From Acidithiobacillus ferridurans (GTDB lineage: Bacteria; Pseudomonadota; Gammaproteobacteria; Acidithiobacillales; Acidithiobacillaceae), in the NCBI RefSeq assembly GCF_003966655.1, contig NZ_AP018795.1, positions 2,187,501-2,251,500 of the forward strand: 64,000 nt of DNA, read 5' to 3'. The position numbers and the translations under genes were made by a program. Positions 46,038 to 60,804 of this stretch are shown here, piece by piece. The notes beneath the pieces were generated by a model. That model searched no databases and was not told the origin of the DNA. It saw only the letters and a program-made list of their open reading frames with translations. Positions within the stretch are counted from its first letter, which is position 1, and every line of letters begins with the position of its first letter.

Positions 46038-46187
46038 CTGCCAAAATGTTGTTGCTGTCCCTATCGAACAACGCTATATTCCGATAAACATATCATATTC
46101 GGGGCAGGCTTCTGCGGGTCTCGGTTCGGTTTCGCTGGGGAGGTGCGCGTCGTGCGTCATATCCGGCCATATATGGAGAGGGAGAAA

Positions 46188-46799
46188 ATGAATATGGAAC
46201 AGGAAAGATCTGTCGTCCTGAAGTTGTCCGTTCACAATGACGCTGTCCTCTCGGTACAGGGTCCGCACTGCCCCGGTTCGGAGACGCTGGATATCCGCCG
46301 TTTTGGCGATGAGGATTCCATAGTGCGTCCTGCCATCACCGATATGCATTTCCCCGAAGTGATTTTTCCCACCCGCCGGGTAGGCCGGGTAGCCGGGGTG
46401 GAAAAGGTCCGGGAACTGGTCGTGGAGCACCATCGCCTCATCTGGCATAGCCCGCTACAACCCATCTTCGGCAACAACGAAAAGCATTTCTGGAAGGCCG
46501 TGGAATTGACGGCGGATTTTCATGCAGAAGTCTGCGGCGGCCCCAAGCTCTATACGGAGCGGCGGGGGCGTCCCCATCTGCGCGAACGGCACTTTCCCTT
46601 CACCATCCGGGAGAAGGATCGTGAACTCTGGCTGGATCTCTATGTGCAGGCCCTGCGCAACGTCGCCTTCCCGCTGGAAGTGGCGGAGGAGTACTGGCGC
46701 TGGGTGGAATCTCTGTCCATCCGCATGATCAACCGCCGCACCACCTTCGCGGAACCGGTGCGGGTGCCTTACAGCCAAATCGCCGCACAGTTGGCCTGA
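46188..46799 (+). CDS. Truncated-haemoglobin-like globin with N-terminal extension
   Basis: 203 residues; a globin domain of about 120 residues (75-195) follows an extension of about 70 with no recognised domain. The core reads SPLQPIF, KLYTERRGRPHLRERHFPF (His in RERH is the expected proximal haem ligand) and LWLDLYVQAL, like group II/III truncated haemoglobins. The usual B10 Tyr appears replaced (EHHRLIW), so ligand chemistry may differ. In-frame starts exist at 46143, 46173, 46188 and 46194; GGAGAGGGAG fits 46188 best. It is first behind a sigma-54 promoter and 10 bases before a TonB-receptor gene. Oxygen or NO handling for nitrogenase, or haem-based sensing, is inference. Confidence 0.72.
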   Translation: MNMEQERSVVLKLSVHNDAVLSVQGPHCPGSETLDIRRFGDEDSIVRPAITDMHFPEVIFPTRRVGRVAGVEKVRELVVEHHRLIWHSPLQPIFGNNEKHFWKAVELTADFHAEVCGGPKLYTERRGRPHLRERHFPFTIREKDRELWLDLYVQALRNVAFPLEVAEEYWRWVESLSIRMINRRTTFAEPVRVPYSQIAAQLA

Positions 46800-49171: not shown

Positions 49172-51403
49172 ATGAAAATTAAGGCCGTCATGCGTTACAC
49201 CGTGTACACGCTCATAATGGCCGCAACGGTGAAGTCGAGCCTCGCGTGGGCGGAAGATGGCGCAAACGCCCCAAAGCTCCAAGCCATTACCGTAACGGGG
49301 AGTGGTCAGACGCCCCTCGTGCTGCCGTCCCTGGGTGCAGGCACAGGTGCCACCATCCCCAACTCCAGCTTCGATCTCTTTCAAAGCCCCGGTGGGACCA
49401 ATGCCTATAGCATCGTCAGTGGACTACCCTCGGTCATGGTGCAGACCACGGACCCATACGGCTTGTCCAGTAGCGGCCCTGTAGGCATCAGCATCCGTGG
49501 TGAAACGAGCATCAAAGGGGCCATCGGCACCGTGGAAGGCATTCCCATCTCCGCCATCGATCCGGGAGCGGGCCAACAATTTTTATTCGATAGCGAAAAC
49601 TTGCGGAGCGTCAGCCTCCTGACTCCTCCTTTCGCGCCAGAGCATATTTCCGTATTCACGCAGGAAGGATATCTCAACCGGAACATTCGCTGGGCTGCGG
49701 ATCATTTCGGCGGCGAAGTCTCCCAAAGCGCCGGTTCCTTCGGTTTTCACAAGACCTTTCTGCGTTTGGACTCTGGGCTGCTGGCCACCGGCACCAAGTT
49801 TTTCATTTCATCCTCCTATGCCCATGCCGACGCCTGGCGCGGGAATGGAGCCGCTCCGGATTATCGGTATAACGGGACATTTGGGGTCACCCAGCGGATC
49901 ACCCGTCGGCTCACGGCAAAACTCTTTGCCGTCTACGACGACATGAAGGGCGCCAGCTACCTTCCCCTCAGCTATGCTCAGGCATCCAATCTTGGTGCCA
50001 ATTATAACCTGGGGTACAACGCGAACCCGCAAAGCCTCAATTATTCCGGATACAACCAGCAAAAATTTCAGGACTATGCCTTGATGGGTGAAATTCGCTG
50101 GCGCACGAGTTCCCATGGCACATTGCTCATAAAGCCTTTTTACATTCAGGAAAACGGTTACACCATGGGTACGGGACTTCCGGGAGTAAAACCCAATCAA
50201 ATTGGTTATTGGAGTATCAATCACCATCTGTATGGCGTTCTGGCCAAATATGATTTTCATTATGCCCAGACGAAATTTTCCCTGGGGTACTGGTACGAAA
50301 ACATTCAGCCGCCAGGGCCCCCCACTGCGGTCAAGGCGTTCAATATTGCTCCTGACGGCTTGCAATTTAGCAACTGGACGCCGTTGCTGGTTAATCCTGT
50401 ATCCAACAATGTTTTCAACAGCCCATATTTTCAGGCGAAGCGAGCATTCGGTCCGGTGACGGTCACCGCAGGTGTCCGCTATTTAACGGAACAAATCCCC
50501 ACGCTCAGTGTTTATAACGGCAGCGGGGTGGGAGATGTGTCACCCAGCCAGGCGATCCGTGATGCGGCATTTAAATACACCATCAATGGCCATACGGATT
50601 ATCAATGGCTCCCCTATATCGGTGCACTCTACCGATTCACGCCGCATGTCAGCCTTACCGCTGCGTATGGCCGGGACAATGGGGGCCCTGCTCTGGAGAT
50701 GTGGCCGAAACTGGTGCTGTCCGGAATGCCGGCAGCGGCTGCCCAAAACGCCTGGAACACCACGCGGCCAGGTACGTCCAACGCTTTTTCCCTGGGTCTG
50801 GCCATTACTCATACGCGCTGGTATCTGCGCCCGGATGTGTTTTACACCACCTACAATCATAAGGACATCCCCATCAATGTACCGGGAACGTCCGCATTTT
50901 ATAATCAGAACCTCGGCGTAGGGAAGGCTTGGGGTCTGGAAATCCAGGGCGCCGTCCAGCCGTTGGATGATCTTCAGGTTTTCGGCTCTGCCGCTTACGA
51001 TCGCGCCTACTTCACTCAAAATATCCCCGACGGCCAAACCATCCTTCCAGTCAGCGGATTGCAATTCCCCGATGTTCCAAAATTCCTGGCCACCCTGGGA
51101 CTTCGTTATCGTTATCACCGATTCACGGTCAGCCCGGTTATTCAATACACGGGCCTGCGTTATGCAGATTCATTGCACACTCAGCCGGTGCCGGCCTATT
51201 GCATTACCAATCTGAATTTCGCCTATCATCAGCCGCTACGGCATGTCGGCGAACTAACCGCAAGGCTGCAGTTCCTGAATCTATTCAATCGTCATTATAT
51301 TGGCCTCATCAGCCAAAACTATGTGCAAACCGGAGCCAGTGCGGCGACTTTCTATCCCGGCGCGCCACTGACCGTGGTCGGTTCCTTGGCATTACGATTC
51401 TAA
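49172..51403 (+). CDS. TonB-dependent outer membrane receptor 2
   Basis: 743-residue precursor. The signal peptide ends near SLAWA, then comes the TonB-box-like LQAITVTG. The plug region (GISIRGETSIKGAIGTVEGI, QQFLFDSENLRSVSLLTPPF) and the barrel align closely with receptor 1 throughout, including the last strand (VGSLALRF), so the two arose by tandem duplication. The 91 bases between them contain an AGGAGG ribosome-binding site but no evident terminator. Ligand unknown; divergence of the loops could give two ligand forms. Confidence 0.9.
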   Translation: MKIKAVMRYTVYTLIMAATVKSSLAWAEDGANAPKLQAITVTGSGQTPLVLPSLGAGTGATIPNSSFDLFQSPGGTNAYSIVSGLPSVMVQTTDPYGLSSSGPVGISIRGETSIKGAIGTVEGIPISAIDPGAGQQFLFDSENLRSVSLLTPPFAPEHISVFTQEGYLNRNIRWAADHFGGEVSQSAGSFGFHKTFLRLDSGLLATGTKFFISSSYAHADAWRGNGAAPDYRYNGTFGVTQRITRRLTAKLFAVYDDMKGASYLPLSYAQASNLGANYNLGYNANPQSLNYSGYNQQKFQDYALMGEIRWRTSSHGTLLIKPFYIQENGYTMGTGLPGVKPNQIGYWSINHHLYGVLAKYDFHYAQTKFSLGYWYENIQPPGPPTAVKAFNIAPDGLQFSNWTPLLVNPVSNNVFNSPYFQAKRAFGPVTVTAGVRYLTEQIPTLSVYNGSGVGDVSPSQAIRDAAFKYTINGHTDYQWLPYIGALYRFTPHVSLTAAYGRDNGGPALEMWPKLVLSGMPAAAAQNAWNTTRPGTSNAFSLGLAITHTRWYLRPDVFYTTYNHKDIPINVPGTSAFYNQNLGVGKAWGLEIQGAVQPLDDLQVFGSAAYDRAYFTQNIPDGQTILPVSGLQFPDVPKFLATLGLRYRYHRFTVSPVIQYTGLRYADSLHTQPVPAYCITNLNFAYHQPLRHVGELTARLQFLNLFNRHYIGLISQNYVQTGASAATFYPGAPLTVVGSLALRF

Positions 51404-51415
51404 AGGGAGCATGTC

Positions 51416-52069
51416 ATGGAGGTTTTATTCCACCTTGCCGCCGTATCCGGGGGTATTCTTTATCTGATGCCGCTTCTGTTGCTGGCGGTACTTTTCGTGG
51501 CCTTGGAGCGAGGCTGGGCGTTGGCCATGATCCGGCGCAAGGGCGACGATCTGTTACGCGATCTGCAAAACAGAAAAGGCCGAGAATCCCTGGAAACGGA
51601 ACTGGCCAAGACGCCGTTCTGCCCGCAACAGGCCGTATTCGCAGCGGTTCTCGCATCCCATGATCTGGCAAGTGGCGAAGCCTACGCCGAGGAGGCGATG
51701 CTGGCCCAGGCGACCTTGCTGGACCGGGGCTTATGGATTCTGGATACGGCAGTCACCCTGGCACCTCTACTCGGCCTGCTAGGTACCATCATCGGGATGT
51801 TCAATGCCTTTCAGATATTGGGTAATCCGGATACCGCGCCAACGGCCATTACCGGTCATGTGGCGGAAGCCCTGGTGGCCACGGCAACGGGTTTGGCCAT
51901 TGCCATTGTGGGCCTGGTGTTTTTTAACGGACTTCAGCAACGGGTCCGTCTGGTGCTGCATCAGATGGAAAGGATCGAGGTGAGCACCCTGAATCGTCTC
52001 TACCGACAGCCTGTCAGGACCCATGGAGATGCCTCTGTCAGCCTGCTGGCACGGCGAGGGGAGGTCTGA
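51416..52069 (+). CDS. exbB: ExbB/TolQ-family proton channel
   Basis: 217-residue membrane protein of the MotA/TolQ/ExbB family. The first membrane helix is YLMPLLLLAVLFVALERGWA. The second and third lie in the family block ILDTAVTLAPLLGLLGTIIG and TGLAIAIVGLVFFN. With ExbD it energises TonB. It follows receptor 2 after 12 bases with AAGGGAG upstream and sits directly before exbD. Confidence 0.93.
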   Translation: MEVLFHLAAVSGGILYLMPLLLLAVLFVALERGWALAMIRRKGDDLLRDLQNRKGRESLETELAKTPFCPQQAVFAAVLASHDLASGEAYAEEAMLAQATLLDRGLWILDTAVTLAPLLGLLGTIIGMFNAFQILGNPDTAPTAITGHVAEALVATATGLAIAIVGLVFFNGLQQRVRLVLHQMERIEVSTLNRLYRQPVRTHGDASVSLLARRGEV

Positions 52070-52070
52070 G

Positions 52071-52466
52071 ATGCGTTATTTCGAGGCCCGCAAGGGGCGT
52101 ATCGAGATCATTCCCATGATCGACATCATGCTTTTTCTGCTGGTGTTCTTCATCATGATCACCTTGCGCATGATTCCCGCGACAGGGATCAGCACCCGCT
52201 TGCCGACCAGCAGCAACGCCCAGGTTTTGCCCAAAACGCCTCTGGTGGTGGAGTTGCGCAGCGACGGCCGTCTGCTTTTTCACGATAAAGCGGTGACGCT
52301 GACCCAACTGGAGCAGCAGTTGGCCCAAAACTACGCCAATCACCCGCAGGTCATCCTGGCGGGCGCGAAAAATGTGACTCTGCAGCAGTTGGTGACCGTC
52401 ATGGACGCCTGCCGCCACGCCGGCATCAGCCAGATGGGCATCGCTACCCGTGCGGGGCGGCCGTGA
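52071..52466 (+). CDS. exbD: ExbD/TolR-family protein
   Basis: 131-residue protein with one N-terminal membrane helix: EIIPMIDIMLFLLVFFIMIT, where the conserved Asp (MID) is the proton-carrying residue. The periplasmic domain follows with LVVELRSDGRLLFHDKAVTL. ATG 52071 comes after GGGGAGG; a longer frame from 52023 runs inside exbB. The GTGA overlap with tonB indicates coupling. Confidence 0.93.
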   Translation: MRYFEARKGRIEIIPMIDIMLFLLVFFIMITLRMIPATGISTRLPTSSNAQVLPKTPLVVELRSDGRLLFHDKAVTLTQLEQQLAQNYANHPQVILAGAKNVTLQQLVTVMDACRHAGISQMGIATRAGRP

Positions 52467-53200
52467 GCACTCTGGCGCTCCCCTCCAGCCCGCAGCCGCC
52501 CAGGGCCGTGGTTTTTCTGCTGGCCCTGATCCTGGAGTCGGGCATTCTGGCGGTTCTGGCCGTCTGGATGCGGGCATCTCCTCTACCCACGCCGGTGATC
52601 ACCCCGCCCATGGCGGTCCAACTGGTTTCCTGGCCGCAGCCCAGCGCCACCCCACAACCCACCCCTCACCCGCCAGCACCCCGGACCGCCGCGTCGATAC
52701 CGCGAAAACCCGTTCCCACCCCGCCCAAGCTGTCGCCAAGACCGCCGCGAGAGGCCAAAGTGCCGGTCCGCACCCCGCTCTCGGCACCGAGTGCGCTGGC
52801 GGCAACTGCAGCCCCATCCACAATCTCCCGGATGCCCGCACCGGTGACATCTGCCGCAGCCACGCCTGCCACACCCGCTTTACCTCCATCCGCTCCCGCT
52901 CCGGCGGCGGAAACCCGCCCCAGCATCCCTGCCTATGTCCACAACCCCGCACCGGAGTATCCCCAGTCGGCGCGTTGGGATGGGGAAGAGGGCACCGTAC
53001 TGCTGCGGGTGCTGGTCAACGTGTCCGGCCTGCCGGAAAAAATAACGGTAGCCCACAGTTCCGGCTATACCAGCCTGGATCGCGCGGCCGAAAAGGCCGT
53101 GCGGCACTGGCGCTTCACCCCCGGCACCCGCGACGGGAAACCAGTGGCCATGCAGGTGGAAGTCCCGATTCGTTTTCGTCTGACGGACGCCAACCCATGA
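52463..53200 (+). CDS. tonB: TonB energy-transducing protein
   Basis: 245 residues. An N-terminal membrane anchor (about 14-37), then a Pro- and Ala-rich periplasmic spacer (about 45-155, with PPKLSPRPPREAKVP), then a C-terminal TonB domain with PAPEYPQSARWDGEEGTVLL and AAEKAVRHWRFTPGTRDGKP. It carries energy from ExbBD to the receptors. The start is GTG 52463, overlapping the exbD stop; the end overlaps the ATPase gene. The dedicated TonB system next to two receptors suggests a specialised substrate. Confidence 0.93.
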   Translation: MSTLALPSSPQPPRAVVFLLALILESGILAVLAVWMRASPLPTPVITPPMAVQLVSWPQPSATPQPTPHPPAPRTAASIPRKPVPTPPKLSPRPPREAKVPVRTPLSAPSALAATAAPSTISRMPAPVTSAAATPATPALPPSAPAPAAETRPSIPAYVHNPAPEYPQSARWDGEEGTVLLRVLVNVSGLPEKITVAHSSGYTSLDRAAEKAVRHWRFTPGTRDGKPVAMQVEVPIRFRLTDANP

Positions 53201-54747
53201 TGCTGCGTGCTGCGCATTTGGCCTATGCCCATGGCCATCGCATGGTCCTGGAAGATGTCTCCCTGCAGTTGAATGCCGGAGAGTCGGTGGCCCTGCTTGG
53301 GGCAAACGGCAGCGGCAAAAGCACCCTCATTCGTCTGCTTCTCGGCATCCTGAAACCGCTGAGGGGCGAGATTCGCCTTCGCGATAGCGACTTGCATGCC
53401 CTATCGGCCAAAGAGCGGGCGCAACGACTGGCTTATGTACCCCAGGACCATGGCGTGGTCTTTCCCTTCCTGGTGCGAGACGTGGTGCTCATGGGCCGCC
53501 TGCCCCACCAATCCTGGCTGGGGGTTGCCAGTGCCCATGATCGGGAGCAGGCGGAAGCGGCGCTCGCCCGGCTGGGTATCAGCGGTCTTGCGGAGCGCTC
53601 CTACATGGAACTGAGCGGGGGTCAGCGGCAACTGGTCATCATCGCCCGCGCATTGGCCCAGGAGACACCGATACTGATTCTCGATGAGCCGGTAACCGGG
53701 CTGGATTATGGCAATCAACATCGCCTGATGGCGCAGATCCAGGACTTGGCGGACAGCGGTTATGCCATCCTTCAGAGCAGTCATTATCCGGAACACGCTC
53801 TTTCCACGGCAAACCGGGTCATTCTGCTGAAGGATGGGCGGGTGCTGGCTGACGGTCCTCCGATAGAGGTGCTTCATCCGCAACACCTACGCGCACTTTA
53901 CGATATAGACACGGAGTGCCTCGAAACCAGCGACGGTCGCCGCGTTATCTTGCCTAAAGCGCTTTCTTCCGCCCTGTCCCAGAGCAGACGCGGAGCCTGT
54001 TTGAACCTGTCTTCTGAGGAATATCCCATGACCCATACTTTACACATTTTTGCCTCCCTCACATTGGCGGAACCTTTTCAGGAAATCATCCAGGGCTTTA
54101 CCAGCGCCCACCCGGATGTCTCTGTGAAACCCACCTATGGTTTTTGCGGTGCGTTGATGGAACAAATGGCGGCGGGTGCGTCCGTCGATGTGTTTGCCCC
54201 CTCTTCGGAGCCCATGCTGGCAAAGGCTGCGGCGCAGGGGTTCGTGCAGACCGATACGGCGGTGAACTATGCACGGAATCGGCTCGTACTCGTCAGTTTG
54301 ATGAGGGATTATCCGCTGGCGCCCAAGCTCGAAGCGCTCATGGAAGAGCGCTATGCGCGCATTGCCATTGGTGATCCAGAATCGGTTCCGCCCGGACGTT
54401 ATGCGCGCATGGCGCTGGAAAAGGCTGGGTTGTGGCAAGACCTGGAAGCGCGCATGCAGAAATACCCCGATGGTCTCCAACCCCTGCAAGCGGTGCTGGA
54501 GGGAAATGCGGATGCGGCCTTTGTTTTTGCCTCGACGGCCAACAGCGCATCGGGAAAAGTCCATATCGTGGATATTCCAGTCGGCGTTTCCATGCATTAT
54601 CCCGTGGCGGTGACGACCAAGAGCGCAGAACCAGAACTGGCCCGCGCTTTTGTCGTCTATCTGCAGACGGACGCTGCACAGAAAGTCCTGGAAATTACGG
54701 GTTTCGCGCCCGCCCTCAGCGCTCAGCCGCTGCTGAACGCTTTCTGA
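53197..54747 (+). CDS. FecE/MolC-type ABC ATPase fused to a ModA-like domain
   Basis: 516 residues in one uninterrupted frame. Residues 1-255 are an ABC ATPase: Walker A LLGANGSGKST, Q-loop PQDHG, signature LSGGQRQL, Walker B ILILDEPVTGLD, switch His in QSSHYPEH; it resembles siderophore, cobalamin and MolBCA molybdate transporters. A linker of about 22 residues leads to residues 278-516, a ModA-like binding domain (HIFASLTLAEPFQEI; GASVDVFAPSSEPML; ARNRLVLVS) lacking a signal peptide. Tethered to the ATPase it would be cytoplasmic, suggesting a substrate sensor. An internal ATG (54028) with GAGGA upstream could also yield the second part alone. ATG 53197 overlaps the tonB stop; ATG 53200 is an alternative. 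Confidence 0.85.
   Translation: MMLRAAHLAYAHGHRMVLEDVSLQLNAGESVALLGANGSGKSTLIRLLLGILKPLRGEIRLRDSDLHALSAKERAQRLAYVPQDHGVVFPFLVRDVVLMGRLPHQSWLGVASAHDREQAEAALARLGISGLAERSYMELSGGQRQLVIIARALAQETPILILDEPVTGLDYGNQHRLMAQIQDLADSGYAILQSSHYPEHALSTANRVILLKDGRVLADGPPIEVLHPQHLRALYDIDTECLETSDGRRVILPKALSSALSQSRRGACLNLSSEEYPMTHTLHIFASLTLAEPFQEIIQGFTSAHPDVSVKPTYGFCGALMEQMAAGASVDVFAPSSEPMLAKAAAQGFVQTDTAVNYARNRLVLVSLMRDYPLAPKLEALMEERYARIAIGDPESVPPGRYARMALEKAGLWQDLEARMQKYPDGLQPLQAVLEGNADAAFVFASTANSASGKVHIVDIPVGVSMHYPVAVTTKSAEPELARAFVVYLQTDAAQKVLEITGFAPALSAQPLLNAF
54014..54030 (+). promoter_or_regulatory. Possible internal translation start of the ModA-like part
   Basis: GAGGA (54014-54018) lies nine bases before ATG 54028, which begins exactly where ModA homology begins (MTHTLHIFASLTLAEPF). 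It would give a free 239-residue protein, 54028-54747, in the same frame as the fusion. Since no stop codon separates the two parts, both a fusion and a free domain are possible products. Confidence 0.45.
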
Positions 54748-54766: not shown

Positions 54767-55807
54767 ATGTTGAATACTTTGCCAGGCAAATGGCGTTTAT
54801 CTATTGCGGCGTTGGGCGCCAGCCTCTTGCTCTCATTGCCCTCGTGGGCGGCCACGGCCCCTACCCAACTCCCGCCCCACAGTGTTTACGGCACCGCGCC
54901 GCCAGTGACCCTGCTGATTTACAGTCTCGCCCCGGATTTGCTGGCCGGGTGGAATTTCCCGCTGAATAAAATGGCGGGCCTGGGCATGAGTACGAATTCC
55001 AAGTACCTCTTGCCGGCTACGCGCAATCTGCCGGTACTGGGTGGCTGGGACCCCGGCGACAAACCGGAGCTGGAACGTGTGCTCGCCATTCATCCCAAGC
55101 TGGCCTTGCTCTGGGCGCCTTACCTGGATGATGCCCGCCTGCGTAGCGAGTTACAGCGCATCGATGTGCCCACGCTGACCGTCAATCTGCAAAGTCTGAA
55201 CGACTATCCGGCCGCATACCGTCTGCTGGGAGATCAGTTGGGGCAAGGCGCGCGCGGTGAGGAACTGGCCACGGCCTTTCAAAATATTTTGAGTCGCCTT
55301 AAGGACTTGCGCAGCACCATTCCACAGGCACAGCGCCAGACAGTCTATTACGCGGAAGGCGTGGATGGCCTGATGACCGACACGGCGAATTCTCCCCATA
55401 CCGAAGTGATCCGTGCCGCAGGCGGTGATAACGTCTTTACCGGCAAGGCGACGGCACTGAAGGGGATGGAACGGGTGAGTATGGGGCAGGTGCTGGCCTG
55501 GAATCCCGACGTGATTCTGGTGCAGGACCCGGTGTTTTACCGGCGCGTGTATAGCCTTCCGGCCTGGCAGGGCCTCCAGGCGGTAAAAGCACATCGGGTT
55601 TACCTGGTGCCCCGGCAGCCTTTTAACTGGATGGATCGTCCACCTTCCTTCATGCAGGGCTTGGGGGCTCTCTGGCTCGCGCACGTGTTGTATCCGCAGG
55701 CATTCAAAATCCATCTGAATCAGGAGATACAGGACTTCTTCAAGACATTTCTGCAGGTCAACGTGAGCAAGGCGCAGGCGCAGGCGCAGGCGATGTGGCG
55801 CCCGTGA
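54767..55807 (+). CDS. Periplasmic binding protein of FecB/BtuF/MolA type
   Basis: 346-residue precursor with a signal peptide (cut probably after PSWAA, about residue 29). The two-lobed class III binding fold is visible in VLGGWDPGDKPELERVLAIHPKLALLW, LTVNLQSLNDYPAAYRLLGD and GMERVSMGQVLAWNPDVILVQ. Such proteins bind ferric siderophores, haem, cobalamin or, in the MolA branch, molybdate and tungstate. It has a strong AAGGAG. It overlaps the permease gene. A short AQ repeat (CAGGCG units, 55771-55792) encodes the C-terminus. Confidence 0.88.
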   Translation: MLNTLPGKWRLSIAALGASLLLSLPSWAATAPTQLPPHSVYGTAPPVTLLIYSLAPDLLAGWNFPLNKMAGLGMSTNSKYLLPATRNLPVLGGWDPGDKPELERVLAIHPKLALLWAPYLDDARLRSELQRIDVPTLTVNLQSLNDYPAAYRLLGDQLGQGARGEELATAFQNILSRLKDLRSTIPQAQRQTVYYAEGVDGLMTDTANSPHTEVIRAAGGDNVFTGKATALKGMERVSMGQVLAWNPDVILVQDPVFYRRVYSLPAWQGLQAVKAHRVYLVPRQPFNWMDRPPSFMQGLGALWLAHVLYPQAFKIHLNQEIQDFFKTFLQVNVSKAQAQAQAMWRP

Positions 55808-56829
55808 GGATAACGGCACTACCAGAGTCGGCCAGGAGGCTGACTTTACCACTGTTGCTCTTGCTTCTGGCCGCCATGGCGGTGCTGGAGATGTCCTGGG
55901 GGCACTACCCGCTGTCCTGGCTGCAATTCTGGCAATGGCTGCGGGGCAGCCCTTTGTTGGCGCCGGACAAAGCCATGCAGATCCATTTGTTGATGGTGGA
56001 GATCCGCCTGCCGCGCCTCTCCGTGGCGATCCTCGTGGGTGCGGCGCTGGCGGCCAGTGGTACCGTCTTTCAGGCGGTGTTCCGCAACCCGCTGGCGGCC
56101 CCAGATATTCTGGGCGTCATGGCAGGAGCCGCCTTCGGGGGCGCCTTGGGCATCATCCTGGGCGGTCCCTGGTGGACGATACAGATGGCGGCCTTTGTTT
56201 TTGGGCTGATCGCCGTGGCGATGGCTTACCTGATCGCCCGCCATTTTCCGGGGCAGCCCACTCTGATGCTGGTGATTGGCGGCATCCTGGCCGGAGCCTT
56301 GTTTACCGCACTGCTTTCCCTGGTGAAATATGCCGCCGATCCGTACCAGCAGCTACCCAGTATCGTTTTCTGGTTGATGGGCAGTCTTTCCAACGTGCCC
56401 CTGCGCCAGATACCCTACTTCGCCCTGCCGGTTTTTGCCGGGATCGCGCTGTTGATGTTGCAAGGGCATCGCCTCGATGCCCTCAGTCTGGGGGACGAGG
56501 AAGCACACAGTCTTGGTCTGCCAGTGCGCCAGATCCGTTTGCTGGTCATCGTGCTCGCAACGTTGTTGGCGGCCATGGCGGTGATGATGGCGGGGATGAT
56601 CGGCTGGATCGGGCTCATCATCCCCCATCTGGGACGTCTGCTGCTCGGGCCGGGCAACCGCCGTCTGTTGCTGGGAAGCAGTATTCTCGGTGCCGCGTAC
56701 CTTTTGCTCGCAGACGCCCTGGCCCGCAATCTGTTCTCCGTGGATGTTCCGGTGGGCGTATTTGCGGAACTTCTGGGGGTGCCAGCGTTTTTGCTGGTGC
56801 TCCGGCAGATACGGAAGGCGTGGGTCTGA
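55795..56829 (+). CDS. FecCD-family ABC transporter permease
   Basis: 344-residue polytopic permease, about ten hydrophobic segments, of the FecCD/BtuC/MolB family. Motifs include VEIRLPRLSVAILVGAALAA, GTVFQAVFRNPLAAPDILGV, FWLMGSLSNVP and GMIGWIGLIIPHLGRLLLGP (the coupling region). One gene is expected to form a homodimer. GTG 55795 and GTG 55804 are both possible starts, inside the end of the binding-protein gene. It is the last gene of the plus-strand series that begins at the globin gene. Confidence 0.92.
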   Translation: MAPVRITALPESARRLTLPLLLLLLAAMAVLEMSWGHYPLSWLQFWQWLRGSPLLAPDKAMQIHLLMVEIRLPRLSVAILVGAALAASGTVFQAVFRNPLAAPDILGVMAGAAFGGALGIILGGPWWTIQMAAFVFGLIAVAMAYLIARHFPGQPTLMLVIGGILAGALFTALLSLVKYAADPYQQLPSIVFWLMGSLSNVPLRQIPYFALPVFAGIALLMLQGHRLDALSLGDEEAHSLGLPVRQIRLLVIVLATLLAAMAVMMAGMIGWIGLIIPHLGRLLLGPGNRRLLLGSSILGAAYLLLADALARNLFSVDVPVGVFAELLGVPAFLLVLRQIRKAWV

Positions 56830-56891: not shown

Positions 56892-58103
56892 TCACTCGGC
56901 GTGCGCTGGGAGAGGGAGGGGCTCGTCAATCACCAGTGTCACTCCCGCCGCCGAGAGCAATGCCTCCAGGGCCGGTTCCAACTGCCCGGCGCGCATGTGA
57001 ATTTCGTCCGCCCCCTGGGCGATGAGCCATGCCGCCAGCCGTATGCCGCGCCCTTTTTCGGCGCCGGGTACGGGGTTGTTCAGGGTTTGGGTATTCACCA
57101 GGACACCTTCGTGGTTTTCGTCCTCAAAACGAATACGCTGCGCCATGCCAAAGCGCGTGGCCAGCGCCGATCCCTCCTCGGTCAGAAGGAATGCCCGCCT
57201 TTTATAGGGCTTGAAGGGCGGCTCATAATGAAGCGTGATGTTTTCCAGCTCGGGGAACGCCTCTTGCAGACGTTGCTGGGCGCGGTCGGCTACTTCATGG
57301 GCGTGCGCGAAGTTCGCCGCGGCGATACCGATGGTGGCGTCCGCGAACAGGACACTCCCGGCATGGCGCAGACGCAGTCCCTCCACGGTTTCCACTTCCG
57401 GCGTGGTCAGCAGCAGATTTTTCGCCTTCGCGTACAGTTCGGATTCCACCGAGGCGTCCAGCAGGGAGAGGATGGCGTTTTTCAGCACCCCCCAGGTGCC
57501 CTCCAGAATCAGGAAGAGGATGATGAGGACGGCAATCTCCTGGGCAAAGGGTATCCGCAAGAGATGCCCGCCGATTCCGGCGATGACCACGACACCGGCG
57601 CCGATATCGCCCAGCCAGTTGACCACATCGCTTTGTAGTCCGGGGGAGTGGAGGCGGGCGGCGGCGCGTCGTTCGAAAACATAAAAAATCCCCTCGGCCA
57701 CCAGAACGACCGTCATGAACCCCATGGTGGCCAAGGGATTGTCAGGTGGCCGCGCACCGCCGGAGAAAAACACCGCGCGGGCGATCTCATAGGCGGCAAT
57801 GACGACCAGCAAGGCACCGCCCAGGGCAGCCATGTCCTCCACCTTATGGAGACCGTACGGAAACCGCAAGGAGCGGTGGCGGGAAAAGCGGATGGCCGCA
57901 AGGATGAGCAGGGCGCCCAATACATCGGAAATGCTATGCACGGCGTCGGCGATGACGACGGTGCTGCCGGAATAAACGCCCCAGCCGATTTTTGCTATGG
58001 AAAGCAGGCCATTGAGCCCCGTCGATGCCATCATCCAACGGGATTTCTGCCGTTCCGCCAGGTCAGAGGGGGTGGTTTTTTTCGGTGTATCCATCGCCTC
58101 CAT
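56892..58103 (-). CDS. Cation diffusion facilitator transporter with C-terminal NifX/FeMo-co-binding-like domain
   Basis: 403 residues from ATG 58103 (ATGs at 58094 and 58151 are alternatives). CDF membrane part, about 20-215: metal site A would be HSISD in helix 2 and NWLGD in helix 5 (HxxxD plus NxxxD, not a standard set for one metal). A ZT-dimer-like cytoplasmic domain follows (about 215-298), then about 95 residues with TRFGMAQRIRFEDENH, NPVPGAEKGRGIRLAAWLIA and a GADEIHMRAGQLEPALEAL helix, like the dinitrogenase FeMo-cofactor-binding (NifX/NifB C-terminal) fold. It lies 74 bases after the porin gene, convergent with the uptake operon. A link between metal transport and cofactor metal is inference. 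Confidence 0.82.
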   Translation of the reverse strand: MEAMDTPKKTTPSDLAERQKSRWMMASTGLNGLLSIAKIGWGVYSGSTVVIADAVHSISDVLGALLILAAIRFSRHRSLRFPYGLHKVEDMAALGGALLVVIAAYEIARAVFFSGGARPPDNPLATMGFMTVVLVAEGIFYVFERRAAARLHSPGLQSDVVNWLGDIGAGVVVIAGIGGHLLRIPFAQEIAVLIILFLILEGTWGVLKNAILSLLDASVESELYAKAKNLLLTTPEVETVEGLRLRHAGSVLFADATIGIAAANFAHAHEVADRAQQRLQEAFPELENITLHYEPPFKPYKRRAFLLTEEGSALATRFGMAQRIRFEDENHEGVLVNTQTLNNPVPGAEKGRGIRLAAWLIAQGADEIHMRAGQLEPALEALLSAAGVTLVIDEPLPLPAHAE

Positions 58104-58177
58104 GGTCCCCGTCTGCCCAGCCTCCGGCAATGATACCTTAATGCAGTCCATCTTCCACGCATCATCTATGATCGGCG

Positions 58178-59506
58178 CTAAAACTTGTACGTCATCATCA
58201 CTCGGTTGTACACAAAGGAGTGTTGTCCTGAGCCCGGAAACAGTCCGACCGCACCACCATTCCCCACCTCCACCTGATCCCGTAAACACAGTCCCTTAAA
58301 CATGCCTTGGGGGAAATAGCTCACGTTAAAGTGGGTCCAGTTGCTGTTCCCCGAAAAATAGGTAGTGAATTGTGAGTAGCCTGCAGTCAGTTGGACTTGC
58401 TCAGGCAGCACCCAGTAAGCGGCCCGCACCCGCCAGCCATGACCCGGACCCACGCCGACCAGGCCCTGCATCATGCTATTCACATACAGCGGGTCTGCTG
58501 TATAGCCGATGGTATAGGGAGAAATAATGGCGCCGCCGCCCAAGGCGTGAGCATGCAATTCTGTAGCATCATAACCCCACCACAGACTTCCGTGAGGAAA
58601 TGCGATGCCGGTCTTGATACCCCAGTTGGTACTGTTGACGCCCTGGCCCGGTTGCCCGAAAAGCGTAGTGGCGGTATTGGCAAAGGTCTCTCCGGCACCC
58701 CATTCCCGGGTGAATTGCGCATCCACAAAGGGCTTGAGGACGAAGGATGTCGGCAGGGCGTAGTGACCGTTCCAGTAGAACATGTTGGCGAATTGATCAA
58801 ACTGATAAAACCAGGCGGCGGTTTCTGCGTGATATGCGTGATATTGGGCGCCAAAGGCGAGCGCTCCGTTGGTGGGTGGGGTACCGGCGGGTAGCACGTT
58901 GGGTCCGCCATAGAGGGAGTCACCCTCATAGTGGCCGGGATAATAGAGGTTATCCCGGTAGAACTGGTCGGTGGTGCGGTCTTTCCAGCGGAAAATCCGC
59001 AGCGCGCTGAGTTGCACGCCGCGGAAGGGATGGGCCTCCAGGGTTACTCCCTGATAGGTGACGGGGATCACCCGCCCACCGACCCGGTTTAGCCAGGGGG
59101 TATCTACCAACTGATTGCCTGCCTTGGCGGTGATCCATTTGTCCTGATATTCCAGATAGGCCTGACCCAGTGCATTGACGGAAGGACTGGTACCCATGAG
59201 GGTCTTGTCGATCCGGGCCGGATTGCTGGGCTGTGTGCCGAGAGCATTGGCGGTGTAAAAACTGACGCCGATACGGAAGCCCGAGAGAAAGGGCGCGGTG
59301 ACGACGTTGATGCGTCCGGCCAGGGAGTAGGCATACGCATTGACGGTGTTGGGGGTGCCATAGAGGCGACTGAAGTAATAGGAACGGATTTGTCCATCAA
59401 TATGACTTTTCGCAAAAAACTGGGACAGGGTTTCGGCGTGGGCACTGGCGTTGAAGGCACCCATCAGGCTGGCTGCTGTCATCAGATGAAGGATGTTTTT
59501 CTGCAT
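58178..59506 (-). CDS. Outer membrane porin, OprD-like
   Basis: 442-residue precursor with a signal peptide (cut probably after ASAHA, residue 23) and a beta-barrel rich in aromatic residues, ending with Phe (VMMTYKF). The start of the mature chain, LSQFFAKSHIDGQIRSYYFSRLYG, and the mid-barrel AFGAQYHAYHAETAAWFYQ resemble OprD-family substrate-specific porins. It lies between the WtpA-type binding protein and the CDF gene in the same orientation, so it may admit the same oxoanion or metal. AGGAGC precedes the ATG. Confidence 0.8.
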   Translation of the reverse strand: MQKNILHLMTAASLMGAFNASAHAETLSQFFAKSHIDGQIRSYYFSRLYGTPNTVNAYAYSLAGRINVVTAPFLSGFRIGVSFYTANALGTQPSNPARIDKTLMGTSPSVNALGQAYLEYQDKWITAKAGNQLVDTPWLNRVGGRVIPVTYQGVTLEAHPFRGVQLSALRIFRWKDRTTDQFYRDNLYYPGHYEGDSLYGGPNVLPAGTPPTNGALAFGAQYHAYHAETAAWFYQFDQFANMFYWNGHYALPTSFVLKPFVDAQFTREWGAGETFANTATTLFGQPGQGVNSTNWGIKTGIAFPHGSLWWGYDATELHAHALGGGAIISPYTIGYTADPLYVNSMMQGLVGVGPGHGWRVRAAYWVLPEQVQLTAGYSQFTTYFSGNSNWTHFNVSYFPQGMFKGLCLRDQVEVGNGGAVGLFPGSGQHSFVYNRVMMTYKF

Positions 59507-59671: not shown

Positions 59672-60595
59672 TTATTTCAGTACGTCACCCTTGGGTGGGT
59701 TGTAGCCGGTCTCTTTGAACATGGTCTGTCCCTGGGGACTGGTCATGAAGTGGATAAAGGCCATGCCCAGTTGGGGATCGGGCGCGTCCACAGGTACTGC
59801 CGCATAAAAGACCAGCGGCTGGGTGTGGACGGTTTTGGGTTTGCCATCCACATTCAGGGTGAAGTGGACTTTGCTGTACCAGTCTTTGACCATGGCCGGA
59901 TTGCTGAGATTGATCTGATCGGGCAGAGTGATATAAGGCAGATGCAGGGATTTTACCGCGCTGAGATAACCCGATGAGGCGGCCATCTGCCCACTCTTGA
60001 GGCGGGAAAGCAACGACGCCTCCGTGAATATCTGCCGGGGGTTCTCGACCGCTCCGAGGACTTTGTTCACTAGATCCGGTTGGTGGTAATACCTTTCCGC
60101 CAGCATGAAGGTGAAGACGATATTTTGCCCTTGGGGGTCGGTTTTGGGATCGGTGCGGCCGAAGACCACCCCCGGCTTCTGCAGGATTTTATACCACGGC
60201 ACCTTGCCCTCCGCAGCTTCCTTGAAATCTTTGGCGTAGGGGCTGCTGGGACTATAAGCGATGCACATGGCTGTACTGGCGACCGGGAAGGCCTCCTTGA
60301 CCAGGCCGGCCTTGATCAGCACCTCGATGGGGCCGGGGGTGATGGAGACAAAAACGTCAGTGCGCAGTTTGTGGGCGGCGATGAGCCGGGCGAGGCCATA
60401 AGCGCCCTGGCCCTCCCCCTGATATTGCACATTATGGGCTTTGGCGAAGGCCGGTCCAAGATGCAGGTCCATGACGGTACCCATGGAGCCTGCGTAAGCG
60501 ACATGCAGGTCTTTGGCCATGGCCTGGAGCGATAAACCCAGCAGGCTGGCGGCGACGATCAGCGCAAGGGAACTTTGATGGTGACGGTGTTTCAC
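59672..60595 (-). CDS. WtpA/ModA-type periplasmic oxoanion-binding protein
   Basis: 307-residue precursor with a signal peptide ending near LQAMA. The mature part has LHVAYAGSMGTVMDLHLGPA, the phosphate-loop-like site of tungstate/molybdate-binding WtpA proteins, plus YQGEGQGAYGLARLI, DVFVSITPGPIEVL, FGRTDPKTDPQGQN and a C-terminal FIHFMTSPQGQTMFKETGY. GTG 60595 is chosen with AGGAG upstream; the 48-residue upstream extension lacks conservation. No wtpBC or modBC permease/ATPase is adjacent, so its partner may lie elsewhere. Molybdate or tungstate is the expected ligand, but sulfate-like anions are possible. Confidence 0.85.
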   Translation of the reverse strand: MKHRHHQSSLALIVAASLLGLSLQAMAKDLHVAYAGSMGTVMDLHLGPAFAKAHNVQYQGEGQGAYGLARLIAAHKLRTDVFVSITPGPIEVLIKAGLVKEAFPVASTAMCIAYSPSSPYAKDFKEAAEGKVPWYKILQKPGVVFGRTDPKTDPQGQNIVFTFMLAERYYHQPDLVNKVLGAVENPRQIFTEASLLSRLKSGQMAASSGYLSAVKSLHLPYITLPDQINLSNPAMVKDWYSKVHFTLNVDGKPKTVHTQPLVFYAAVPVDAPDPQLGMAFIHFMTSPQGQTMFKETGYNPPKGDVLK

Positions 60596-60621
60596 GTGCT
60601 CTACTCCTGTGGTTTGCGAAA

Positions 60622-60661
60622 TATATGGATGAATATACCGGCAACTATTTTTTGCTGTCAA
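60622..60661 (-). promoter_or_regulatory. Sigma-70 promoter of the WtpA-type gene with overlapping palindrome
   Basis: On the minus strand: TTGACA (60661-60656), an 18-base spacer, TATATT (60637-60632). TATAT-GGATGA-ATATA (60622-60637) is an inverted repeat over the -10 and start site, similar in form to ModE operators (TATAT arms) but short-armed. Repression by a molybdate-responsive regulator is a guess. Confidence 0.5.
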
Positions 60662-60702
60662 CAGGTTTTTTAAGCTGGTTATACCCCGATGTGTCATGAA
60701 TA

Positions 60703-60717
60703 TGGCATCTTTTTTGC
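60703..60717 (+). promoter_or_regulatory. Sigma-54 (-24/-12) promoter of the AAA+ ATPase operon
   Basis: TGGCATC-TTTT-TTGC has exact GG-N10-GC spacing and a strong -24 and -12. Transcription would start near 60729, 76 bases before the start codon. No perfect NifA site is seen upstream; TGT-N10-ATA at 60608-60623 (one mismatch) is at a suitable distance. Confidence 0.68.
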
Positions 60718-60804
60718 TGCATCTTCCACGCGGTCCCATTACCCACTTATTTGTTCGATTTATGACAATAATGTGTATTTATTGACATTTTAAGGAGAGG
60801 CTTT

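Follow-up and report, generated by a model that had tools for sequence, protein, structure and literature searches.

The closest described system is the FepA2-FecA4 cluster of Acidithiobacillus ferrooxidans, which Osorio et al. 2008 treat as a nitrogenase-linked bifunctional Fe/Mo transporter (PMC2631029). The Acidithiobacillus ferridurans locus analysed here lies in the same island beside nif/fix genes, and shares with that cluster a globin, two receptors, a TonB system, FecB/FecCD and a ModA-like ortholog. The two differ in the state of the ModA-like gene, which is fused to an ATPase gene in A. ferridurans, whereas in the FepA2-FecA4 cluster it is separate and its product is called periplasmic (PMC2631029).

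Solute-binding domains of ABC importers normally lie outside the inner membrane. Another point of comparison is MolBC-A, a BtuCD-type transporter which resembles the present system in having a FecB-type binding protein; to our knowledge, MolC of Haemophilus influenzae carries no ModA-fold domain, unlike the A. ferridurans ATPase. MolBC-A of H. influenzae is a molybdate importer (PMC4031551). The importer ATPases ModC and MetN share with the A. ferridurans fusion an extra C-terminal domain on the cytoplasmic side, but their regulatory domains have other folds (PMC10710835).

In the literature searched, a limited open-access body that included the accessible part of Osorio et al. 2008 (PMC2631029), no description was found of the fusion, the missing export signal or the altered pocket reported below. 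The architecture, new to the author of the preliminary description of this DNA, is not wholly new: the unfused gene and its cluster have been known since 2008.

The fused gene and its surroundings

The window, that is, the whole stretch of 64,000 nucleotides analysed, sits in a single contig of 2,921,399 bases. It contains an operon-like run of genes for a globin, two TonB-dependent receptors, ExbB, ExbD, TonB, the fusion, a FecB-type binding protein and a FecCD permease:

46143-46799, + strand: truncated-globin-type protein (Bac_globin domain match); by position, gloA of Osorio et al. 2008 (PMC2631029)
46810-49080, + strand: TonB-dependent receptor 1 (domain match)
49172-51403, + strand: TonB-dependent receptor 2 (domain match)
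51416-52069, + strand: ExbB (MotA/TolQ/ExbB domain match)
52071-52466, + strand: ExbD (domain match)
52463-53200, + strand: TonB-type protein (TIGR01352), whose stop overlaps the ATPase start
53197-53952, + strand: FecE/BtuD-type ABC ATPase core, fusion residues 1-252 (ABC_tran)
53953-54027, + strand: linker, residues 253-277, PKALSSALSQSRRGACLNLSSEEYP; no known domain matched
54018-54030, + strand: putative internal ribosome-binding site GAGG with the ATG at 54028, orthologous to the A. ferrooxidans gene start
54028-54747, + strand: ModA-fold domain of 239 aa without signal peptide (SBP_bac_11, TIGR01256, AlphaFold model)
54767-55807, + strand: FecB/BtuF-type periplasmic binding protein with an apparent signal peptide (Peripla_BP_2)
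55795-56829, + strand: FecCD/BtuC-type permease, start codon uncertain (FecCD, 1.4e-80)

The open reading frame at 53197-54747 (+ strand) comprises 516 codons and a stop, with no internal stop, and places the ATPase and the ModA-fold domain in one frame. In the ATPase part, ABC_tran was matched over fusion residues 18-166 (4.9e-34, domain search), the nearest profiles being TIGR03873, PRK13548 and PRK09536, and the motifs are intact: Walker A GANGSGKST, signature LSGGQ, Walker B ILILDEP and the H-loop His in SSHYPEH. With FecCD and FecB genes adjoining, these are the features of a FecE/BtuD-type importer ATPase, and the extra domain is C-terminal to it, as in importer ATPases of the ModC/MetN type.

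An open in-frame junction of 24 codons has a probability of about 15% by chance, from base composition alone. The open frame alone therefore carries little weight; the telling evidence is that it recurs in a second species. In Acidithiobacillus ferrianus MG (G006), the fusion is present end to end, with 516 aa, 92% identity and no indel in the linker, and the DNA of the two species is 96% identical through the junction. The fusion proposed in the preliminary description is thus genuine: the same frame in A. ferrianus rules out a sequencing error. The search for the same fusion in other genomes, also proposed there, yielded the A. ferrianus gene; at the level of the phylum (398 genomes), the class (369) and the order (31), no further fusion was found among the matches listed, which are the stronger ones. 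A contig search of genomes gave matches in A. ferrianus and A. ferruginosus only. On plasmids, all matches were below 60% identity, and the annotated ones among those listed were ModA or ModB.

Upstream of the run are two electron-transfer-flavoprotein subunits and a FAD oxidoreductase, consistent with fixABC, and some 26 kb separate nifH from the fusion. In the A. ferridurans genome, no ModB permease scored above the curated cut-off, and the permease adjoining the fusion is FecCD. In this nifH-bearing genome, the fused domain is the sole ModA match. Close to the cluster, three further genes lie on the - strand: a cation efflux protein (56892-58289) with a C-terminal Nitro_FeMo-Co match that is weak and below cut-off (22.9 bits), a porin-like protein (58178-59506), and a WtpA-like binding protein with a signal-like N-terminus (59672-60739). 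Mo or Fe efflux was suggested for this trio by Osorio et al. 2008 (PMC2631029). Among 17 Acidithiobacillus genomes, 10 have nifH over cut-off and only three have a full ModA-like gene, which rules out that the latter is needed wherever nifH occurs.

Fold, location and pocket of the ModA-like domain

In the second domain, SBP_bac_11 was matched over fusion residues 282-503 (7.3e-49), and the TIGR01256 modA score of 126-129 bits is about twice the curated cut-off of 62.5; the sequences of the other two species that have the domain score 129.6 and 124.8 bits, and two ordinary relatives about 194. The AlphaFold model of the isolated domain (pLDDT 90.8) predicts a ModA fold, with Z 29.6 to 4kd5 over 226 residues (rmsd 1.6) and Z 24.8 to 1wod. 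Fold, length and family score are therefore those of ModA (TIGR01256, PF13531; 1amf, 4kd5), from which the domain differs by the lack of a signal peptide, by the alteration of most contacts, and by a permease of the FecCD rather than the ModB type.

As claimed in the preliminary description, the export signal is missing: the domain opens at its first strand (MTHTLHIFASL...), with nothing hydrophobic upstream. Scored by a hydrophobicity window rather than by a trained signal-peptide predictor, no N-terminal export signal was found in the three Acidithiobacillus sequences. In contrast, nearly all other ModA relatives examined have a hydrophobic stretch upstream, the exceptions being fragments or matches starting inside the domain. 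Since the domain is joined to an ATPase and has no export signal, this topology would place it in the cytoplasm, and the missing signal argues against the periplasmic reading of Osorio et al. 2008.

Contact residues were taken from a published list for Escherichia coli ModA (PMC7604516; precursor numbers less 24); S12, S39, A125, V152 and Y170 are also given elsewhere (PMC8895017). The alignment was made with a provisional E. coli ModA sequence, which agrees with the published numbering at the five key residues. Only 3 of the 11 contact positions keep the E. coli residue (V123, P124 and D151), and eight are changed (A10S, A11L, S12T, S39C, A58S, A125P, V152G and Y170F), so that the contacts as a set are not conserved. 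In domain numbering, the oxyanion pocket reads T12, C40, P122, G149 and F167. In an alignment made without the E. coli sequence, C40, P122 and G149 (that is, S39C, A125P and V152G) were shared by all three Acidithiobacillus sequences but by none of 27 relatives; F167 (Y170F) also occurs in six ordinary relatives, and is no argument. In ModA, A125 and V152 contribute backbone NH groups, which proline cannot do, and the proline at A125 thus makes the usual binding of molybdate less likely. Judging from the alignment, we consider binding in the ordinary mode unlikely. The idea that the domain senses molybdate, raised in the preliminary description, is not supported: with most contact positions altered, A125 among them, such sensing is doubtful.

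Fused, free and lost forms in related species

The comparison covers three species with the domain and one with a remnant, at one genome each. In A. ferrooxidans (G014, which we take to be ATCC 23270), the ModA-like part is a separate, signal-less gene of 239 aa, 88% identical to the A. ferridurans domain, with a stop 9 codons upstream and a good Shine-Dalgarno sequence of its own (-8.8). Between TonB and this gene, there is a cassette of FecB', FecCD', ATPase' and a third receptor (L023:4537-9524). The same cassette constitutes the system of another genome, G005 (L059), where its proteins are 83-91% identical to those of A. ferrooxidans and where there is no ModA-like gene. This common cassette appears to have replaced the ATPase of the operon in A. 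ferrooxidans.

In A. ferruginosus CF3 (G010), two deletions, corresponding to window positions 54016-54278 and 54391-54727, take out most of the ModA-like part, and the ATPase, FecB and FecCD frames are still open. The second TonB-dependent receptor is shortened in two species, to 398 aa in A. ferrooxidans (L023:1370-2566) and 157 aa in A. ferruginosus (L024:8022-8495), compared to 743 aa in the window. The outgroup G024, of another genus of the same family, has the globin, receptor, ATPase, FecB and FecCD genes with no ModA-like gene between them, the ATPase stop overlapping the FecB start. ATPase lengths vary in these relatives, with 266 aa in A. ferrooxidans and G005 and 293 aa in G024. A full ModA-like gene is absent from most Acidithiobacillus.

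Because in G024 the ATPase is followed directly by FecB, the A. ferrooxidans group probably acquired the ModA-like gene by insertion between ATPase and fecB. The simplest history suggested by these arrangements would be this insertion, followed by later loss in A. ferruginosus and replacement of the ATPase in A. ferrooxidans. The ModA-like part is optional: its free form in A. ferrooxidans and its loss in A. ferruginosus show that the system can persist without the covalent tether. That A. ferruginosus has lost it also means that the domain may be of little importance.

Where the domain is kept, it evolves under purifying selection. The omega values of the ModA-like part (Nei-Gojobori) were 0.19 for A. 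ferridurans/A. ferrianus, 0.19 for A. ferridurans/A. ferrooxidans and 0.22 for A. ferrianus/A. ferrooxidans, compared to 0.13 for the ATPase and 0.14-0.15 for FecB. For the linker, omega was 0.69, calculated by the same method from just 6 substitutions, so that no clear constraint is measurable. Its residues 263-277 have pLDDT below 50 in the AlphaFold model of the whole fusion; this model is itself poor, with pLDDT below 50 over most of the ATPase part, and useless for contacts between the domains. The internal GAGG is a moderate Shine-Dalgarno sequence (-6.1 kcal/mol, a value equalled by 16% of internal in-frame ATGs), but the ATG at 54028 corresponds by orthology to the position where the separate A. 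ferrooxidans gene starts. A second start there, as had been proposed, is plausible.

Possible roles of the domain

We give about an even chance to the reading that the domain is a ModA-fold accessory that assists the uptake system from the cytoplasm and that two species have tethered to the ATPase. On this reading, the A. ferrooxidans group gained a signal-less ModA-fold domain between ATPase and fecB of a TonB-FecB-FecCD uptake operon, and the domain would serve that system as a cytoplasmic accessory binding domain. A. ferridurans and A. ferrianus would produce it as the flexible C-terminus of their ATPase and probably also, from the internal start, as some free protein; A. ferrooxidans would produce the free protein alone. 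With two ATPases per transporter, two ModA-fold domains would be present on the inner face. Since the pocket no longer matches ModA, molybdate held in the ordinary manner is probably not their ligand. The fusion, the missing signal, the fold, the purifying selection, the optional occurrence and the altered pocket are results of the analysis, whereas cytoplasmic location, accessory role, change of ligand and use of the internal start are all points that we infer from them.

It is conceivable, if rather unlikely, that the ATPase is gated by the fused domain in response to a cytosolic ligand which the latter senses. Such gating is possible because the C-terminal domains of MetN and ModC, which occupy the same position, can gate importer ATPases (PMC10710835), and the purifying selection on the domain and the retention of the fusion in two species with unchanged linker length are in keeping with it. 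However, the MetN C2 and ModC regulatory domains differ in fold and work via a dimer interface (PMC10710835), of which there is no sign here, the fusion model being too poor to judge; moreover, A. ferrooxidans has the domain free beside a different ATPase, A. ferruginosus has none, and the molybdate pocket is not retained.

An accidental fusion, in which the ATPase stop was lost after the ModA-like gene had landed behind it, would leave a neutral tail, the working product being free protein from the ATG at 54028. The free ortholog in A. ferrooxidans, the variable ATPase C-termini (266 aa, 293 aa), the linker omega of 0.69 and the chance of about 15% for an open junction all fit; but two species retain the fusion with neither stop nor indel in the linker, and the internal Shine-Dalgarno sequence is just moderate, so that we consider this account improbable.

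Export by another route, the domain then being the periplasmic molybdate-binding protein of the Fe/Mo transporter of Osorio et al. 2008, agrees with the published view of the A. ferrooxidans gene (PMC2631029), with the nearby nitrogenase genes and with the lack of a ModB over cut-off in the A. ferridurans genome; it is nevertheless highly improbable given a signal absent in all three species (in A. ferrooxidans, a stop precedes the gene by 9 codons), attachment to a cytoplasmic ATPase in two, an operon that already encodes a FecB-type binding protein, and an altered pocket. Decay of a gene with no present function, as the two A. ferruginosus deletions and its absence from most Acidithiobacillus might suggest, is hardly credible for full-length frames in three species with an omega of about 0.2, near the FecB value.

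A more far-reaching proposal, which we regard as unlikely, is this: a solute-binding-protein fold would have moved to the cytoplasmic side, joined a type II importer ATPase, come to bind a new ligand and to control the transporter, and would thus represent a new class of importer regulatory domain, free, fused or lost within one genus. The findings speak against the periplasmic reading of a protein whose gene lies, in these biomining bacteria, in an uptake cluster linked to nitrogenase. The hosts of the fusion are two acid-loving, iron-oxidising bacteria, and sister species in which the domain is free, fused or lost offer a natural test of the role of the tether. If true, sensing or substrate handling would have been added to an importer in an unusual way, by an internal ModA fold that is under selection, has a rebuilt pocket and is joined to the ATPase.
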